DNA of 37,713 bases from NCBI GenBank assembly GCA_024224155.1, contig JAAENP010000469.1, positions 1 through 37,713 of the forward strand, written 5' to 3'. The translations under genes and the position numbers were made by a program. How positions within the stretch are numbered: position 1 is the first letter of the stretch; each line of letters opens with the position of its first letter. Below the pieces are notes generated by a model. It was given only the letters and a program-made list of their open reading frames with translations, did not search any database and was not told the origin of the DNA. Shown here one piece after another: positions 14,268 through 22,705 of the stretch. The DNA comes from a bacterium (GTDB lineage Bacteria > Acidobacteriota > Thermoanaerobaculia > Multivoradales > JAHEKO01).

Positions 14268-15200
14268 TCACCGCCGCCGGCCGTCGGGGTCGGTCGCCAC
14301 CTTGGGCTCTTCCGGGACGTACTCTCCCGGCGGTGGCATGCCAGGGTCTCGATCGCTCTCAACGACTTCGGGCTCGAGATCGATGCCCTCTCGCAACCAA
14401 CCCGGAAGAGCCGAGGCTCGACGACCTTCTTCGAGGACGTCGTGGACCTCGATTCGGTGCTTCTCGGCCGCCGCCTTAGCCTCCTCCAATCGGTCAAGGG
14501 CGTGGTCCCAGGACGGCTTGATCTGCGAATCCCGGTAGTAGGGGTCTTCCTCGGCATAGAAGCGCTGGCGCAGCTCGGCGATTCTGCTTTCGAGATGGCT
14601 GATCTCCTCGACTGCCGAGGCCCAGTCCTTTCGTGCTTTCAGGACCCGTCCCCGCCAGTAGGCCTCGGCGTCGGCCGTCTCGTCCATTGCCATCGAGCTC
14701 GGAGAGTCGGTGCGGCCGCCGGCATCCGGTTTTGCGGCGTCCGGGGGCGCCTCCGGCTCTCCCATCTCGGTGAGTTGGCCCTCACTGAAGTCGCTGAGGT
14801 TCTCATTGGTTATGACCGCGATCGACTCCCCCGCCGTCTCGCGCCGCTTGCGCTCGGCCGCGGCGGCCTCGACCAGACTCCGCCTCTTGCTCTGCTCCGC
14901 GTCTTCTTCCTCGATCACGACCGTGAGCGCCGATCGGCGGTCCGTCGATTCGGGCGTGGCCACGGTCTCGGGTTCGGTTTCGGCGACGGGCTCCCGGGGA
15001 TCGGGTCCGAGTGAGTTATCGGGCTCGGGCGGCGGCGAAGCCGACATGGTCTGCGGCGGCAGGCGCTCCGGCTTGGGCGTCGAAGAGCAGGCGGCGAGCG
15101 TGAGGCTCGAGAGCACGAGCGCAGCGGTCGCGACCGAGCGCGTCAGGTCGAAGGCAGGCGCTGGGCCCCGAAACGACTTGGCAGAGAGTCTCTTAAACAT
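14268..15200 (-). CDS. Putative lipoprotein with coiled-coil C-terminus
   Basis: This 310-residue protein has a type II signal peptide: hydrophobic 'VATAALVLSSLTLAAC' with lipobox LAAC, the cysteine at about residue 38. The mature part is Pro/Glu/Ala-rich and probably disordered to about residue 170. A charged helical region follows ('YWRGRVLKARKDWASAVEEI' through 'DRLEEAKAAAEKHRIEV'), likely coiled coil. The family is unknown. ATG 15200 is well supported: GGAGGAAG (15215-15208) lies 7 nt upstream. As a result the first 58 nt of the gene overlap the 3' end of ptsI. An envelope role is inferred from the lipobox only. Confidence 0.8.
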   Translation of the reverse strand: MFKRLSAKSFRGPAPAFDLTRSVATAALVLSSLTLAACSSTPKPERLPPQTMSASPPPEPDNSLGPDPREPVAETEPETVATPESTDRRSALTVVIEEEDAEQSKRRSLVEAAAAERKRRETAGESIAVITNENLSDFSEGQLTEMGEPEAPPDAAKPDAGGRTDSPSSMAMDETADAEAYWRGRVLKARKDWASAVEEISHLESRIAELRQRFYAEEDPYYRDSQIKPSWDHALDRLEEAKAAAEKHRIEVHDVLEEGRRASALPGWLREGIDLEPEVVESDRDPGMPPPGEYVPEEPKVATDPDGRRR

Positions 15201-16912
15201 TTCAACACTTCCTCCGCGGTGGATCGAGCCAGAGCCTCTTTCAGTGGTTCCCGGAACTCCTTGAGTGAAATCGAGCGAATGGCCTCCTTGACTTCCGGGA
15301 TCGTGCTCGGGCTCAAAGACAGTGTCCGCACTCCCAGGGCAACTAGCAAGGATGCGGCCTCGGGGTCCGCGGCCATTTCGCCACAGACGGACACCGCCAC
15401 GCCCGTTTCCTCGCCCACCGCGGCGACCGAGCCTATCATGCGCAGAATCGCCGGATGGTAGGGCTGGTACAGGTATGACACGTGCTCATTGTTGCGATCC
15501 ACCGCCATCGAGTACTGGATCAAGTCATTGGTTCCGATCGAAAAGAAGCTCACCTCGCGAGCGAGCTCTGGGGCGATCCACACAGCAGCCGGAACCTCGA
15601 TCATCACCCCCAACTCGAAATCGGTGGAGTGCTCGACTCCTCGCTCTTCGAGCTCGATGGCGGCTTGCTCGACCAGCCGCTTGAAGGCACGGACCTCCTC
15701 CACGGTCGTGACCAGAGGCAGCATGACCTGCAAACGTCCACGCGCCGCGGCGCGCAGCAGAGCCGTCACCTGGGTGGCGAAGATCTCGGGTCGCGCCAGG
15801 GTCAGCCGCACACCCCGCATCCCCAGGACCGGATTCTCTTCGTCGGTGTGCATCACTTCGCGAGCGAGCTTGCGCCCGCCCAGGTCGAACGTGCGCACCA
15901 CCACCGGGTGCGGCGCCATGGTCTCGAGCAGTCTGGTGTAGATCTCGAGATGCTCGTCCTCGGTCGGCAGCTCCGGACTGCGCTCGATATAGATGAACTC
16001 GCTGCGGTAGAGTCCGACGCCGGTGGCGCCGAACTCGTAGGCCTCGCCGATCTCCTCGGGCAGGTCGATGTTGGCCCGAAGCTCGACGCCCACACCATCG
16101 AGGGTCTGCGCCGGAACCGTTCGCGCGCGCACCCCTCGGTCCCAGCGCGCTCGGCGCCGGGTCTCGGCGGCTCGATAGTCCTCTCGAGCCGCCTCGCTGG
16201 GGTGAAGCACTACCCTGCCTCTGTCGCCGTCTACGAGGAGCGGATCCTCGTCCGTAACCTTGTGCGTGAGGCCGGTCAGTCCGGCGACCATCGGAATGTG
16301 CAGCGAGCGCGCGATGATCGTCGTGTGCGAAGTGCGACTCCCGGTCTCGATCGCGAACGCGATCACCCGCTCACGTCCGAGGCGCACCGCCTCGGACGGA
16401 GTCAGGTCGTGAGCGACGACAATGAAGTCGCCCTCGATGTTGGACAGGTCCTGATGGAAGAGTCCGCCCAGGGCTCGTTGCAGATGCCTCGAAACGTCGA
16501 CCAGGTCCTCCCCGCGGGAGCGCAGATGCTCGGCGTCGAGATCCCGAAAGCGCTCGGCGAGCTCTGACGCGGTCTCGTGCACAGCCCACTCCGCGTTCAC
16601 CTTCTCGGTACGGATTCGCTCTTCGATCCTTCCCAAGAAGCCGGGATCCGAGAGCAACAGGCTATGCGCCTCGAAGATGCCGCCGAGCTCGGTGGCAATC
16701 TCCGCGCTGGCGCGATGCCGAGCGGTTTCGAGCTCTTCCTGGGCGAGCGCGACCGCCTGGTTCAAGCGATCGAGCTCCGCGTCGATATCCACCTCCGCTA
16801 TCGAGAGGCGATAGATCTCTTCCTCTTGGGAAGCGATGCAGACCGCCCTCCCCAGGGCAGCTCCGGGAGATACGGCCAGCCCCTCGACAATCTCCTCGGG
16901 CAAACGGGTCAC
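15143..16912 (-). CDS. ptsI: Phosphoenolpyruvate-protein phosphotransferase (PTS enzyme I)
   Basis: This 589-residue enzyme I has the expected architecture. The HPr-binding/phosphohistidine domain carries the active-site His196 in 'GSRTSHTTIIARSL'. The C-terminal PEP-binding barrel includes 'RTFDLGGRK', 'GMRGVRLTLARPEIF', 'FFSIGTNDLIQYSMAVDR' and the catalytic Cys in 'VSVCGEMAADP'. It has no N-terminal GAF domain, so it is the standard form and not PtsP. It starts at GTG 16912, 6 nt after the ptsH stop. It should phosphorylate the neighbouring HPr. With no sugar permease here, the relay probably serves regulation. Confidence 0.95.
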   Translation of the reverse strand: MTRLPEEIVEGLAVSPGAALGRAVCIASQEEEIYRLSIAEVDIDAELDRLNQAVALAQEELETARHRASAEIATELGGIFEAHSLLLSDPGFLGRIEERIRTEKVNAEWAVHETASELAERFRDLDAEHLRSRGEDLVDVSRHLQRALGGLFHQDLSNIEGDFIVVAHDLTPSEAVRLGRERVIAFAIETGSRTSHTTIIARSLHIPMVAGLTGLTHKVTDEDPLLVDGDRGRVVLHPSEAAREDYRAAETRRRARWDRGVRARTVPAQTLDGVGVELRANIDLPEEIGEAYEFGATGVGLYRSEFIYIERSPELPTEDEHLEIYTRLLETMAPHPVVVRTFDLGGRKLAREVMHTDEENPVLGMRGVRLTLARPEIFATQVTALLRAAARGRLQVMLPLVTTVEEVRAFKRLVEQAAIELEERGVEHSTDFELGVMIEVPAAVWIAPELAREVSFFSIGTNDLIQYSMAVDRNNEHVSYLYQPYHPAILRMIGSVAAVGEETGVAVSVCGEMAADPEAASLLVALGVRTLSLSPSTIPEVKEAIRSISLKEFREPLKEALARSTAEEVLKCLRDSLPSRFGAQRLPST

Positions 16913-16918
16913 GGGTGC

Positions 16919-17188
16919 TTAGCTCCCCTCGCCGAACTTGTCGGTGACCAGTTCACTCAGCTCCGCCAGGGCCTGACCCTCATCGTTTCCATCGCAAGAT
17001 ATTGTCAACATTGTCCCTTGAGCCGCGGCCAGCAGGAGAATACCGAGAATGCTCTTGCCGTCCACCTTCTGCCCGTCCGCGGAGAGCATTACCCGGCAGC
17101 CAAAGGAACCTGCCAAGTGCACGAACTTCGCCGCCGCTCGCGCGTGCAGACCGAGCCGGTTGATGACCTCGAGCTCGCGTTCAACCAC
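16919..17188 (-). CDS. ptsH: Phosphocarrier protein HPr
   Basis: With GTG 17188 as start, the protein is 89 residues and the active histidine falls at exactly His15 ('NRLGLHARAAAKFV') and the regulatory serine at exactly Ser46 ('DGKSILGILLLAA'), the canonical numbers. This is why I prefer it to the longer GTG 17227 frame. His15 accepts phosphate from enzyme I, and Ser46 is the target of HPr kinase, encoded three genes upstream. The start overlaps the stop of the EIIA-like gene by 8 nt, implying coupled translation. Confidence 0.93.
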   Translation of the reverse strand: MVERELEVINRLGLHARAAAKFVHLAGSFGCRVMLSADGQKVDGKSILGILLLAAAQGTMLTISCDGNDEGQALAELSELVTDKFGEGS

Positions 17189-17615
17189 TATCCGATTCGC
17201 CCTCTGCCCGGCCGTCGCTGTCGGCACGGCAGATGCTCTGCCTGCCTTTCTCCTGGAGCCAGGCGGCCAGCTCGCCGACCGAACGCTCCTGGCAGCCCGG
17301 ACAGCATAGTCTCACCACCATCGGCAGGTTGACGCCGGATAGCACCTCGACGTTGCGCCCTCGCGCGAACTTCCTGGCCACGTTGTACGGCGTCCCGCCG
17401 GGGAGATCGGCGAGGATCAAAACCTCTTCCTCTGCCTCCGTGCCTCGGCCCCTATCGGCCAGAGCCGCCGCCAGCTTGCGCTCACTCGTTTCCCGGCTCT
17501 CGTCCCAGTCCAGGGAGAGCGTCTCGAGTCGAGTCGTGTGCCCGGCGATGATGTTTGCTCCCCGGACGAGCTCGTTCGCAAGCGCGCCTTGGGTCACGAC
17601 AAGGATTCTGGCCAT
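17181..17615 (-). CDS. EIIA-Man-fold PTS protein lacking the phosphorylatable histidine
   Basis: This 144-residue protein has the mannose-family EIIA fold: 'ILVVTQGALANELVRGANIIAG' at the N-terminus, 'ILADLPGGTPYNVARKFA' and 'EVLSGVNLPMVVRL'. In the family the residue before the first glycine is the phosphorylated His (the THG motif). Here it is Gln9, encoded CAA. A short tail after residue 110 contains a Cys pair ('LCCPGCQ') and a charged end. The frame overlaps rapZ by 22 nt upstream and ptsH by 8 nt downstream. No EIIB, EIIC or EIID accompanies it. I infer a non-transport, possibly regulatory or degenerate EIIA; a functional phosphocarrier by the usual route is unlikely. Confidence 0.85.
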   Translation of the reverse strand: MARILVVTQGALANELVRGANIIAGHTTRLETLSLDWDESRETSERKLAAALADRGRGTEAEEEVLILADLPGGTPYNVARKFARGRNVEVLSGVNLPMVVRLCCPGCQERSVGELAAWLQEKGRQSICRADSDGRAEGESDSG

Positions 17616-18475
17616 TGCGCCTTGTTCCCTCGCGTAATGTCGCGGTGGTTGATCTGTATCGATTGCTTTTCCGAGCGCAGGGTCTCGGCCAGCGCCTCGG
17701 TCATGGCCACTGAACGATGTCGTCCGCCGGTGCAGCCGATCGCGATGGTCAGGTAGCTGCGATTCTCACGCTGATAGCGTGGCAGCAGAAAGTGCACGAA
17801 GTCCTCGAGCTTGGCTCGCACTTCGTCGAACTCGGCCTCCGAGGTCAGGAACTCTTGAACCTCCGGATCGATGCCGGTCTTCTCTCGAAGCTCAGGCACG
17901 AAGTAGGGGTTCGGCAGAAACCTGACGTCGAAGAGCAGATCCGCGCCGGCCGGAACGCCAAACTTGAAACCGAAGCTGGTCACAGAGACCACGAGATTGC
18001 TGGTCACCACATCGGCGTATTCTCTGAAGATGTGCTGGCGCAGATCGTGGACCGACCACTCGCCGGTGTCGATCACCAGATCCGCACGCGCGCGCAGCGG
18101 ACTGAGTAGCGTCCTTTCCGCTCGAATGCCGGCGGCCACGGTACGACGGTCCTGGGCGAGAGGATGCGGCCGGCGCGTCTCGGAGAACCGCCGGACCAGC
18201 GCGTCGTCCGAGGCCTCGAAGAAGATCAAAACCGCGTCCGGTGAACGGTCCAGAACCCCTGGGAACCTGTCGACAAAACCCGGTGAACGAACGTCCGCGA
18301 CGACCGCGATCCGATTGCGATCGGGAACTAGCGTTTCGTGCTCCACCAGCAGGCGCTCGAGCAGCTCCAGGGGCAGGTTGTCCACGCAGTAGTAGCCGGC
18401 GTCTTCGAAGCACTTGGCGGCGCTGCTCTTGCCCGAGCCCGAGAGGCCCGTTATGACGACGATCCTGGTCCTCAT
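17594..18475 (-). CDS. rapZ: RNase adapter / nucleotide-binding protein RapZ
   Basis: This 293-residue protein has Walker A 'GLSGSGKSSAAKCFEDAGYYCVDNLP' spanning the P-loop and its conserved flank, a Walker B-like 'VADVRSPGF', and the C-terminal domain with 'FLPNPYFVPELREKTG' and 'AIGCTGGRHRSV'. In E. coli RapZ guides RNase E to GlmZ and senses glucosamine-6-phosphate. In other phyla it is typically beside hprK or ptsN, as here, and its target is unknown. The ATG overlaps the hprK stop (ATGA, 4 nt), and the 3' end overlaps the EIIA-like gene by 22 nt. Confidence 0.95.
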   Translation of the reverse strand: MRTRIVVITGLSGSGKSSAAKCFEDAGYYCVDNLPLELLERLLVEHETLVPDRNRIAVVADVRSPGFVDRFPGVLDRSPDAVLIFFEASDDALVRRFSETRRPHPLAQDRRTVAAGIRAERTLLSPLRARADLVIDTGEWSVHDLRQHIFREYADVVTSNLVVSVTSFGFKFGVPAGADLLFDVRFLPNPYFVPELREKTGIDPEVQEFLTSEAEFDEVRAKLEDFVHFLLPRYQRENRSYLTIAIGCTGGRHRSVAMTEALAETLRSEKQSIQINHRDITRGNKAQWPESLS

Positions 18476-19452
18476 CCGCCAGGCTTCTCCGGCTCGGAGG
18501 TTTTCTTCTCGCCCTTGAGCTCCTCCTCCAAGCGCCTCGCGAACTCGCGGGCGGAGTGGTGGCCCTGAAGCTTGAGGACATGATTGCGCGCGGCCACTTC
18601 GACCAGAATGGATAGGTTGCGCCCCAAGGCTACCGGCATCTTGATGTAGGGCACCGGTACATCCAAGACGTGGTAGACGGATTCGTCGAGACCAAGGCGA
18701 TCGTAGGCGCGATTCTCGTCCCAGGACTCAAGCTCGACCACCAGATCGATCGATTTGCGCTCCCGAACCGAGGCCAGTCCGAAGAGATCCTGGATGTTGA
18801 CGATGCCGAGCCCTCGAAGCTCCATATGATGAAGCAGCCGCCCCTCCGAGGAGCCCACCAGATCGCCGTTGGGATACCGCTTGGCGGTCACTCGATCGTC
18901 GGCGACCAGCGAGTGTCCGCGGGTGATCAGATCGAGCGCGCATTCGCTCTTGCCGACGCCGCTTTCGCCGATCAGGAGAACGCCCAGCCCGTACACGTCC
19001 ATCAACACGCCGTGCACGTGCGTGGAAGGGACCAGATGCTCTTCCAGAAAGTTGCTGATGTCCTTGATGACGGACGAAGACAAAGCCGGCGACGCGAGGA
19101 CGGGGCGCTGACGCTCGGTGCAGAGTCTCAGAAACTCGGGGAAGGGCTCGAGGCCCTTGGTGATGATGAAGACGGGTACCGCCATCTCGGTGATTGCGTC
19201 GAAACGCTCGAGCCGAACCCCTTCTTCGAGAGTGGCGAGGAAGCGTGTCTCGCTTTCCCCGATGATCTGGACCCTGCCGGGACGGATGTACTGGTAGTAG
19301 CCGGCAAATGCCAGGCCGGGCTTCTGAACCCTCGGGTTGGTGATCTCCTCGTCTAGACGCTTTCTTCCACAGAGCTGGGAAAACTTCAGCCGTGACAACC
19401 CCTCCCCCAGAAGCTCGCGTACGCGAACCGAGGCAGCGTCGGCCGCGGTCAC
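18472..19452 (-). CDS. hprK: HPr kinase/phosphorylase
   Basis: This 326-residue HprK/P has an N-terminal DRTGG-like domain and a C-terminal kinase with P-loop 'GESGVGKSECALDLITRGH', 'VADDRVTAKR' and the signature 'MELRGLGIVNIQDLFG'. It phosphorylates or dephosphorylates Ser46 of HPr. The target serine is present in the HPr encoded nearby. GTG 19452 was chosen because it forms a GTGA overlap with the ptsN stop; the frame is open far upstream only as a shadow over ptsN. The end overlaps the rapZ start by 4 nt. Length is normal for the family. Confidence 0.95.
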   Translation of the reverse strand: MTAADAASVRVRELLGEGLSRLKFSQLCGRKRLDEEITNPRVQKPGLAFAGYYQYIRPGRVQIIGESETRFLATLEEGVRLERFDAITEMAVPVFIITKGLEPFPEFLRLCTERQRPVLASPALSSSVIKDISNFLEEHLVPSTHVHGVLMDVYGLGVLLIGESGVGKSECALDLITRGHSLVADDRVTAKRYPNGDLVGSSEGRLLHHMELRGLGIVNIQDLFGLASVRERKSIDLVVELESWDENRAYDRLGLDESVYHVLDVPVPYIKMPVALGRNLSILVEVAARNHVLKLQGHHSAREFARRLEEELKGEKKTSEPEKPGG

Positions 19453-19925
19453 TTCACACCGGCGCCTTCTGGGGAGCCCGGCTGACTGAGTAGGTCCAGG
19501 ATGCTCTCTCGATCGGGCTGCTCGAGGATGCGTTCGACGTGCGAATCGGCCTGGACCCACTTGGAGATCGCCGCCAGCGATTTGAGGTGAGCCGCGGGCG
19601 ACTTCTCGGGCGAAAGCACCAGGAAGAGCAGCCGGACGGGCTGCCCGTCCGTGGCTCCGAACTCGATCGCCTCTCTCAGAATCCCGACGGCCACCACGAC
19701 CCGATCCAACTTTCGCACCTTGCAGTGTGGGATCGCGACGCCGTCCCCGACGCCGGTCGAGCACAGCTCTTCGCGCTCGAGTAGCTTCTCGTACAACTGA
19801 TGGGCGTCGTTGACGATGCCCTGCTCGACCATGCGCTCCGAGAACGCCCACAGCGCCGATGCCTGATCTGTCCCCTGGAGCTCGGGGAAGATGAGCTCGG
19901 GCCGTGTAAGAGTAGCCAACTCCAT
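19449..19925 (-). CDS. ptsN: PTS EIIA-Ntr (PtsN-type) regulatory protein
   Basis: This 158-residue protein has the fructose/nitrogen-type EIIA domain. The active histidine is His67 in 'GVGDGVAIPHCKV', and 'LVLSPEKSPAAHLKSLAAIS' follows. In the nitrogen-related PTS this protein receives phosphate from HPr or NPr and regulates other proteins such as potassium transporters and sensor kinases. Placement after rpoN and hpf is the classic rpoN cluster. It begins 4 nt after the hpf stop, and its stop overlaps hprK by 4 nt (GTGA). Confidence 0.92.
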   Translation of the reverse strand: MELATLTRPELIFPELQGTDQASALWAFSERMVEQGIVNDAHQLYEKLLEREELCSTGVGDGVAIPHCKVRKLDRVVVAVGILREAIEFGATDGQPVRLLFLVLSPEKSPAAHLKSLAAISKWVQADSHVERILEQPDRESILDLLSQPGSPEGAGVK

Positions 19926-19929
19926 TGTG

Positions 19930-20475
19930 CTAAAGCTCCGGCGTGATCAGTCCGTAGTTGTCGTCTCGTCGCCGATAGAGCACGCTCACCCGATCGCTTT
20001 CGGAGTCCCGAAAGACCACGAACTGGTTCTCCGAGTTCTGCAGCTCGAACGCCGCCTCTTCGAGGTTCATCGGCTTGATCGAGATCTGGGTGGAGTCGAC
20101 GATCTTGGGCACCTCTCCGCCGCCCAGCGACTCGGGAGCGAGGATCTCCAACGGCCATTTGTCCCCGCCGGCGTTCTTGGTGCGCCGCTTGCGACCCTTG
20201 GCCTTCTTTCGCGACCTGCGCGCCTGCTTTTCGATCTTGTCAACGGCGAGGTTGATCGCATCCATCAGGCTGTCGGTTTCTTCGGCGGCCTGCAGGGTGC
20301 CGAAACGATGTGAAGCGTGAATCTCCGCGAGCTTGCGGTGCTTTATCTCATCCAGAATCACGCGTATCTCGATCGGCTCTTCCAAGAACTTGACCGCCTT
20401 GGTGAGCTTCTTGTCCGCGTAGTTACGAGTCCTGTCGTCCAGACGGAAATGGCGTGCGACGTAGTCGATTTTCAT
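19930..20475 (-). CDS. hpf: Long-form ribosome hibernation promoting factor
   Basis: This 181-residue protein has an N-terminal S30AE domain ('IDYVARHFRLDDRTRNYADKKL', 'EIHASHRFGTLQA', 'DAINLAVDKIEKQ'). A basic linker ('RRSRKKAKGRKRRTK') and the C-terminal dimerisation domain ('EAAFELQNSENQFVVFRDSE', 'VLYRRRDDNYGLI') follow. The long form joins two 70S ribosomes into 100S dimers during starvation. It lies between rpoN (32 nt upstream) and ptsN (4 nt downstream), the usual order. Confidence 0.94.
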   Translation of the reverse strand: MKIDYVARHFRLDDRTRNYADKKLTKAVKFLEEPIEIRVILDEIKHRKLAEIHASHRFGTLQAAEETDSLMDAINLAVDKIEKQARRSRKKAKGRKRRTKNAGGDKWPLEILAPESLGGGEVPKIVDSTQISIKPMNLEEAAFELQNSENQFVVFRDSESDRVSVLYRRRDDNYGLITPEL

Positions 20476-20507: not shown

Positions 20508-21962
20508 CTAGAAAATCTCCTTGCGATGAGTCGAGGACGAAATCCCGAGCTCGTCTCTGTACTTAGCAACCGTTCTGCGAGCGATGTTGATTCCCTCGCG
20601 CTTCAAGATCCGAGTCAGCTCGCTGTCCGAGAGCGGCCGCTTTTGGTTCTCGTTTTCGATCAGCTGCTTGATCTTGCGTTTGACCGTCAGCGATGAGATG
20701 TCGCCGCCGTAGTCGCGCTCGATACCGCTGTGGAAGAAGAACTTCATCGGGAACACGCCTCGCGGCGTGTGGATGTACTTGTTCGAGACCACCCGGCTGA
20801 CTGTTGACTCGTGCATTCCGATGTCGTCGGCGACGTCGCGCAACACCATCGGCCGAAGCTTGTCGATGCCACTGTCGAGAAAGGCCCGCTGTTGACGAAC
20901 GATGGATTCGGCCACCTTGTAGATCGTCCGCTGCCGCTGGTCGATGCTCTTGATCAGCCAGAGCGCGGATCTGAGCTTCTCGCGGATGAAGTTCTTGGCG
21001 TCCGCCTGGCCCGCGTCCGACCTCACGGTGCGCAGCATCTGCCGGTACGCGCCGCTGATCCGCAGCTTCGGCAGGCCGTCGTCGTTGACCTGAATGACGT
21101 ATTCGCCGCTGACTTTGACGACGTAGACGTCGGGTTCCACGTATACCGCCCGGTCGCTGTTGAACCTGCGCCCCGGGCGGGTCTCCAGGGTCTTGATCTC
21201 CTCGACCGCCGGCTCGAGCTCTGCGAGCTCAAGGCCGAGCTTCTTCGCAAGGCTGGGGAACTGGCGTTTCAGGAACAGCTCCCAGTACTCGGTCACGATG
21301 CGCCGGACGAGAGAGTCCTCGGGCTCGCCCCGGGCGTCGAGCTGCTTCAGGAGGCACTCGGCCAGGGACTCGAACGCTATGCCCGGCGGGTCCAGGCCGC
21401 GCACGAAAGCCAGGGCTTCCTCGACCTCTTCGAGAGAGTAACCCGGTTCGCCTGGGATACCGTCGCCCATGGCTCGAATCTCTTCGGCGGTAGCAACCAG
21501 ATAACCATCCGGGTTGAGGTTGCCGACGATCAGCTCGGCAATCTCGCGCTGGCCGTCCGGAATCTCGGCCATGTGGAGCTGCCAGAGAAGATGGTCGTAG
21601 AGATCCGGCTCGCGGCTCAACGTCGCTTCGAGCGGCGGCGCCTCTCGATGCTGCAGCCGGCTTCCGGATGCCAGGCCGGGGCCACCGTCGAGGTATTCGC
21701 TGAAATAGGCCTCGAAGTCGATGTTCTCCATGGCGTCGACTTCGGGAGGTTCGGCGTCGGGCGACTCTTCGTCGACGTCCTCGGCGGTCGCGCTCTCCTC
21801 GAACTCGCCCTCTTCGAGGACCGGGTTTTCGACCAGCTCCTGAGTGATGGTGGTCTGGACCTCCATCCGGGTCATCTGCAGCAGCTTGATCGCCTGCTGC
21901 AGCGACGGCGTCATGACCAGCTTCTGGGCCAGACGGAGTTGGAGCTTTTGTTCGAGTGCCAT
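20508..21962 (-). CDS. rpoN: RNA polymerase sigma-54 factor
   Basis: This 484-residue sigma-54 has region I, Gln-rich ('LQLRLAQKLVMTPSLQQAIKLLQM'), an acidic region II at about 45-80, the core-binding region, the helix-turn-helix ('DIGMHESTVSRVVSNKYI') and the C-terminal RpoN box 'ARRTVAKYRDELGI'. It directs polymerase to -24/-12 promoters with AAA+ activators. No such activator gene lies in the window. It starts 5 nt after lptB and precedes hpf and ptsN. I found no convincing -24/-12 site near these genes. Confidence 0.96.
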   Translation of the reverse strand: MALEQKLQLRLAQKLVMTPSLQQAIKLLQMTRMEVQTTITQELVENPVLEEGEFEESATAEDVDEESPDAEPPEVDAMENIDFEAYFSEYLDGGPGLASGSRLQHREAPPLEATLSREPDLYDHLLWQLHMAEIPDGQREIAELIVGNLNPDGYLVATAEEIRAMGDGIPGEPGYSLEEVEEALAFVRGLDPPGIAFESLAECLLKQLDARGEPEDSLVRRIVTEYWELFLKRQFPSLAKKLGLELAELEPAVEEIKTLETRPGRRFNSDRAVYVEPDVYVVKVSGEYVIQVNDDGLPKLRISGAYRQMLRTVRSDAGQADAKNFIREKLRSALWLIKSIDQRQRTIYKVAESIVRQQRAFLDSGIDKLRPMVLRDVADDIGMHESTVSRVVSNKYIHTPRGVFPMKFFFHSGIERDYGGDISSLTVKRKIKQLIENENQKRPLSDSELTRILKREGINIARRTVAKYRDELGISSSTHRKEIF

Positions 21963-21967
21963 CGTTG

Positions 21968-22705
21968 CTATAGGACGAAGTCTTCCCCGAGGTAGATTTT
22001 CCTTACTTCGGGGTCCATGGAAAGGGAGGCAGGATCGCCGGAACGGAGGATCTCACCGTCGTTGATGATATAGGCGCGATCGGTGATTTTCAATGTGTCG
22101 CGGACGTTGTGATCGGTGATCAGAACGCCGATCCCCATGTCGCGCAGATGGGACACGATCGACTGAATATCGCGAACCGCGATCGGATCGATTCCGGCGA
22201 AGGGCTCGTCAAGGAGAATGAACGACGGATCGATCACCAGCGCCCGGGCGATCTCTACGCGCCGTCGCTCACCACCGGACAGCGCGAATCCCGGACTCTT
22301 GCGTACCTTGCCCAGGCCGAACTGATCGATGAGCTGATCGAGGCGCCGGTCCTTCTCGTCGCGCGTCAACCCGCTCAGCGTCTCGAAGATGGCGCGCAGG
22401 TTGTCTTCGACCGACATCCTCCGAAACACCGAGGCCTCCTGCGGCAGATAGCTGACGCCCTTGCGCGCGCGCATGTACATGGGCACGGAGGTGATCTCCT
22501 CGTCACCGAAGAACACTCGTCCGGCATCCGGCCGGATGACGCCAACCACCATGTAGAAGATCGTCGTCTTGCCGGCGCCATTGGGTCCCAGTAGACCGAC
22601 GATCTCGCCCGCCGCGACTTCGATCGCGACGTCGCGCACCACCGCTCGACCGGCGTAGACCTTGCGCAGCTCGCTGGCGGAGAGAACCAATCGCCCTTCG
22701 CTCAA
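21968..22705 (-). CDS. lptB: Lipopolysaccharide export ABC ATPase LptB
   Basis: This 245-residue ABC ATPase has Walker A 'GPNGAGKTT' (40-48), Q-loop 'YLPQEASVF', signature 'LSGGERRR', Walker B '[13 protein letters not shown]' and the switch histidine in '[10 protein letters not shown]'. These are all close to LptB, including the '[12 protein letters not shown]' segment. It powers LPS extraction with LptF/LptG, which are fused here and encoded about 12 kb downstream. It starts at TTG 22705 in a TTGA overlap with the lptC/A-like gene. A TTG start may lower its yield relative to neighbours. Confidence 0.95.

Follow-up and report, generated by a model that had tools for sequence, protein, structure and literature searches.

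An EIIA-Man-like protein without its phosphoryl-accepting histidine is kept in a rapZ-ptsH operon of Thermoanaerobaculia

The 37,713-nucleotide stretch of DNA analysed here (contig JAAENP010000469.1, hereafter the window) encodes an EIIA-Man-like protein in which the canonical phosphorylation site is absent. Comparison with orthologues shows that its fold, pocket and operon position are kept and that the active residues of the surrounding relay are intact. The protein would belong, as its EIIA-Man component, to a regulatory phosphotransferase system (PTS) that has no permease and is encoded by an operon of the Thermoanaerobaculia. We propose that it is a dephospho-locked EIIA-Man that may still bind its partners and serve as a regulator, a reading to which we give an even chance.

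The open reading frame (Table 1) has an ATG start, opens with MARILVVTQGALA and is the sole match to Pfam PF03610 (EIIA-man) in the window's genome, at 55.4 bits against a curated cut-off of 21.4. Its AlphaFold model has a mean pLDDT of 87.7 and matches the EIIA-Man crystal structures 3bed, 3lfh and 1pdo with Z scores of 17-19 over 126-131 aligned residues, in line with the earlier view that the fold segments are otherwise intact. In the alignment to E. coli ManX, whose reference sequence was verified against PDB 1vrc/1pdo, Gln9 stands at the position of the phosphoryl-accepting His10, whereas Asp70, Thr75 and Asn78 correspond to Asp67, Ser72 and Asn75. The replacement of His by Gln called by the first-pass annotation is confirmed by the alignment and by the codon itself. 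The activating Asp and the Ser/Thr72 loop are both present, and Thr8 and Gly10 are retained in the pocket as well. Overall, the window protein shares with the EIIA-Man domain of ManX (1pdo/1vrc, PF03610) its fold, its length, the Asp67 equivalent, the GG(S/T)P loop and the Asn75 equivalent.

Table 1 Features of the EIIA-Man operon in the window
Feature	Coordinates	Strand	Basis
EIIA-Man-like gene without phosphoryl-accepting His, 144 aa	17181..17615	-	PF03610, 8e-15; predicted model resembles EIIA-Man structures (Z 17-19)
Gln9 codon CAA, E. coli His10 position	17589..17591	-	Alignment to E. coli ManX and codon reading
Asp70 codon GAT; position of Asp67, which activates the His in E. coli	17406..17408	-	Alignment; 12/12 non-His proteins keep Asp
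rapZ (RNase adapter/RapZ family)	17594..18475	-	NF003828, 6e-103; P-loop GLSGSGKS intact
ptsH (HPr), likely start GTG 17188	16919..17227	-	PF00381, 9e-27; His15 and Ser46 motifs intact
ptsI (Enzyme I)	15143..16912	-	TIGR01417, 2e-167; active-site His motif SRTSHTTIIA intact
hprK (HPr kinase/phosphorylase)	18472..19440 (start approximate; open frame to 19851)	-	TIGR00679, 1.5e-106; Walker A GESGVGKSE intact
ptsN-like EIIA-Ntr/Fru	19449..19925	-	PF00359, 5.5e-33; active His intact (AIPHCK)
hpf (ribosome hibernation factor), conserved neighbour	19930..20475	-	Named from sequence and gene order, not profile
rpoN (sigma-54), conserved neighbour	20508..21962	-	Named from sequence and gene order, not profile
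lptB, conserved neighbour	21968..22705	-	Named from sequence and gene order, not profile

The gene lies in an operon with the order lptB, rpoN, hpf, ptsN, hprK, rapZ, EIIA-Man, ptsH, ptsI, followed by miaB (also named from sequence and gene order rather than by profile search). As had been remarked at first pass, it is overlapped on both sides: by rapZ over 22 bp at its start and by ptsH at its stop, over 8 bp if HPr begins at the likelier GTG 17188 or 47 bp if it begins at GTG 17227. The rapZ-EIIA-ptsH-ptsI core is shared by almost every relative in the class; the order of HPr and EIIA appears swapped in two genomes (G001 and G038), according to an automated reading.

EI, HPr with both His15 and Ser46, HprK and EIIA-Ntr are encoded together in the window operon with their active residues intact. 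The same holds in the genomes whose EIIA-Man lacks the His. The HPr His15 and Ser46 motifs, the EIIA-Ntr His and the RapZ P-loop are intact in 12 of 12. The EI His motif is intact in 11 of 12 (EI being uncovered in G002), as is the HprK Walker A motif (the alignment of G007 is interrupted at this motif). Judged from these motifs, the lost function is confined, where the other components are readable, to a single phosphorylation step of the relay. In addition, two profiles were searched, PTS_EIIC (PF02378) and the mannose-type EIIB profile PTSIIB_sorb (PF03830); neither gives a match in any of 18 family genomes, among them that of the window, and control genomes do match both. This sets the system apart from that of E. 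coli ManX, and its role is most likely purely regulatory, like that of the Brucella PTS.

Within the class Thermoanaerobaculia (Acidobacteriota), 136 of 149 genomes gave a PF03610 match. The site was read in 134 orthologues, of which almost every one lies between rapZ and ptsH in the operon: 122 have His, 8 Gln and 4 Arg. In the window's genus, each of the three species has Gln, as do g3 and g5, two other genera of its family, and, elsewhere, G052 (family f3) and G085 (family f8); G051, the sister species of G052, has His. Arg is carried by the three species of genus g4 and by G037 (family f12). Among the orthologues read, the His has been replaced repeatedly, by Arg as well as by Gln. The codons are CAA, CAA and CAG for Gln across the window's genus, and CGT, CGC and CGG for Arg across g4. 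Since they differ within genera, the codon has drifted under an unchanged residue.

Two overlapping sets, both ranked or chosen and so non-random, were read beyond the class. The first, made of loci from a scan of a genome collection and the best matches in the phylum, gave 101 His, 8 Gln and 1 unread site, and every Gln row is a class member already counted above. The second, made of phylum matches and including 30 genomes picked mostly for divergent homologues, has His throughout except for one Lys, in G200. A scan of a virus collection with the window protein returned two weak partial matches only.

These counts bear on whether Gln9 could be a sequencing or assembly error. The window's genome is metagenome-assembled and fragmented into 576 contigs; nevertheless, two congeners and several other genera, all assembled independently, show the same residue, which rules the error out and leaves it a negligible probability. 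The first-pass annotation had held that its reading would fail if all close relatives had His. Both congeners have Gln, and the codon has turned over synonymously, so recent decay is excluded as well.

Parsimony places 7 changes at the site on a tree of RapZ, HPr and EI, and 5 on an EIIA tree computed with the site removed. On the EIIA tree, the hypothesis that all Gln proteins arose once was rejected (AU test, p = 0.002) and was discarded on this ground. A single origin inside family f1 is compatible with both trees (p = 0.31 on the EIIA tree, 0.086 on the RapZ, HPr and EI tree), and we therefore state the loss count as a range of 5-7. From the distribution on these trees, there look to be at least four separate losses, in f1, G052, G085 and G037, one of them between sister species; with its sister G051 having His, the Gln of G052 may be young. 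Eight single-base changes of a His codon alter the residue, and three of the eight lead to Gln or Arg. By our arithmetic, the chance that four events would all land on Gln or Arg is about 0.02, which is mildly non-random for four or more.

Nearly all of the proteins that have lost the His keep the rest of the pocket. The partner Asp, Gly10 and Gly73 are present in 12 of 12, and Thr75 in 11 of 12, with Ser in the remaining one. The position of E. coli Trp69, a neighbouring aromatic, is Pro in four and His in two of the proteins of genera g1 and g4, so the lip of the pocket is not fully frozen. The dN/dS ratio is 0.15-0.36 when both members of a pair are non-His, compared with 0.08-0.47 in His pairs, and 0.19 for the Gln/His sister pair; dS is often near saturation, which makes these values rough. 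The ratio of EIIA to RapZ p-distances has a median of 1.53 (1.22-2.33) in non-His pairs and 1.32 (0.96-2.16) in His pairs, and this slightly higher relative rate hints at some relaxation. Where the EIIA gene is retained, these measures indicate that it is retained as a protein.

Slow decay has to be weighed against this. On such an account, the EIIA-Man branch would be dispensable in the order, the His would be lost first and the gene deleted last, and little function would be left by now. Several relatives fit the end point. In G057 (L307) and G058 (L308), of genus g19 in family f5, EIIA-Man is cleanly missing and rapZ is directly followed by ptsH, the other PTS genes being intact; at about 6070-6090 of L308, no more than a few bases separate the TGA stop of rapZ from the ATG at which ptsH starts. 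The 13.5 kb read in G061 (L309) contains rpoN, rapZ and miaB, and ptsN, hprK, EIIA-Man, ptsH and ptsI were not found within it. A related genus in which EIIA-Man has been cleanly lost makes the function dispensable in the order, and the raised EIIA rate and the repetition of the losses within one order agree with decay too. However, the reading frame is open, the pocket intact and the operon slot conserved; dN/dS is far below 1, and the Gln and Arg codons turn over synonymously. Moreover, only Gln and Arg are seen among the single-step changes available to a His codon. We consider slow decay the less likely account, but it is the main rival of our reading and a live one.

A second alternative keeps the protein at work on the relay itself: it would dock phosphorylated HPr without accepting the phosphate and so tune the supply of HPr to HprK and EIIA-Ntr. 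Asn78, whose E. coli equivalent Asn75 is a mapped contact at the HPr interface, is kept in 11 of the 12 non-His proteins, the C-terminal KGRxSI stretch is retained as in the His relatives, and the EIIA gene adjoins ptsH. The same residues may instead serve dimerisation or binding of a target, and E. coli Lys127 is unconserved, being Cys129 in the window protein. An HPr decoy or sensor therefore strikes us as improbable. The decoy for HPr suggested at first pass is compatible with the data, and other parts of that proposal fare better: that phosphorylation at the canonical site is impossible, that the gene is kept in its operon and that the protein is in a locked state are all well supported by the sequences.

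A phosphosite displaced to another His, to a Cys or to the region around the Arg or Gln could also restore phosphotransfer. Candidates are His26 and a CCPGC cluster in the window protein, as well as Cys105, which does not vary among the counted proteins of the order. However, the three congeners have no His in common outside the tail, and Cys105 is just as constant in relatives that have the His (the count covers 12 non-His and 33 His proteins), so it is no replacement for the His. A displaced His, which the first pass had named as speaking against its reading, was ruled out, none being common to the non-His proteins, and we regard a displaced phosphosite of any kind as highly improbable. Among the non-His proteins, the CCPGC cluster (residues 104-108) and Cys129 are found in the window's genus only; the cluster is a possible redox or metal site.

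The reading that we prefer, a dephospho-locked EIIA-Man, also draws on which residues replace the His. The class shows only Gln and Arg there, never Asp or Glu, which makes a phosphomimic less probable than a dephospho-like state as far as residue identity can tell. The phosphomimic reading was rejected for the same reason, none of the loss events having produced an acidic residue. Gln or Arg in place of His would hold the protein permanently in the dephospho conformation. Locked in this way, EIIA-Man may still act by binding partners, as is proposed for Brucella melitensis, where the EIIA-Man-like protein binds SucA in a yeast two-hybrid assay and its dephospho form has been proposed to inhibit 2-oxoglutarate dehydrogenase (PMC2937029). 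Its output would depend on how much of it is present and on competition with HPr instead of on phosphorylation from PEP and EI, and EIIA-Ntr would be left as the sole phosphorylatable EIIA of the operon. The incomplete PTS of B. melitensis (HprK, NPr, EIIA-Ntr) likewise has its EIIA-Man-like protein, PtsM, in one locus with HprK and NPr, and no permease (PMC2937029). In contrast to the window protein, which is without a canonical phosphosite, the Brucella protein is phosphorylated by NPr.

In logic, the locked EIIA-Man would be the EIIA counterpart of Crh of Bacillus and Parageobacillus, an HPr relative with Gln for His15. Crh is likewise a relative of a PTS phosphocarrier, with its active His changed to Gln, that acts as a regulator (PMC9631020). 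The window EIIA resembles it in that the active His is replaced and the protein is otherwise under selection. The likeness is of logic only: Crh has the HPr fold, occurs alongside HPr and is switched at Ser46 by HprK, whereas here the altered protein is an EIIA of the EIIA-Man fold that has neither a paralogue nor a known second switch.

The phosphosite-less EIIA-Man is real, and its mechanism is what we infer. The His-Asp pair has been stated to be universal in EIIA-Man homologues (PMC7587183), a statement that needs qualifying, with proteins of the window's type as exceptions. Our search of the open-licence literature found no described EIIA without its His, which is a weak absence. Proteobacterial rpoN/ptsN/ptsK clusters with IIA-Man, ptsH and ptsI, for example in Xanthomonadales, bring together the same gene set (PMC2405797), with no mention of phosphosite loss in the passages considered; the other classes that we sampled keep the His, bar one Lys.

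EIIA proteins are usually read as phosphorylation switches. Here the phosphosite has been removed repeatedly, with Asp, pocket, EI, HPr, HprK and EIIA-Ntr unchanged, a natural experiment that separates a phospho-dependent from a phospho-independent role of EIIA-Man in a widespread type of operon (rpoN-ptsN-hprK-rapZ-ptsH). Such "dead" EIIA-Man proteins might form a class of phosphorylation-independent PTS regulators, with several origins in one order and acting by partner binding alone; we offer this generalisation tentatively, its chances being somewhat short of even. If true, it would show a phosphate-free function for EIIA-Man in hprK/rapZ operons, comparable to Crh and to pseudokinases.

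Some relatives depart from the common pattern in other ways. The Lys-bearing protein of G200 (L310, 4945-5784; same phylum, another class) comes from an open frame of 280 aa in which two stretches resemble EIIA-Man; one, the first, has Lys at the His site (SKG), and the second also lacks His there; no other operon gene was matched within the 11.5 kb read. Families f10 and f18 gave no ptsN (EIIA-Ntr) match within the operon stretches read. The same is true of hprK and hpf in genus g23 of family f7 (21 genomes; L109, L115-L119, L121, L123-L136). There, HPr with the Ser46 motif is kept in 20 genomes and was not found in G078, and the residue preceding Ser46 is mostly Arg or Thr, compared with Lys in other families. 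EIIA-Man of g23 keeps its His, but the partner Asp is changed to Glu in 20 and to Gln in one (G071). Finally, G084 (L137, family f7) keeps the His and has Ala for the partner Asp (LCALYGDTP), so that here it is the Asp half of the His-Asp pair that is lost.
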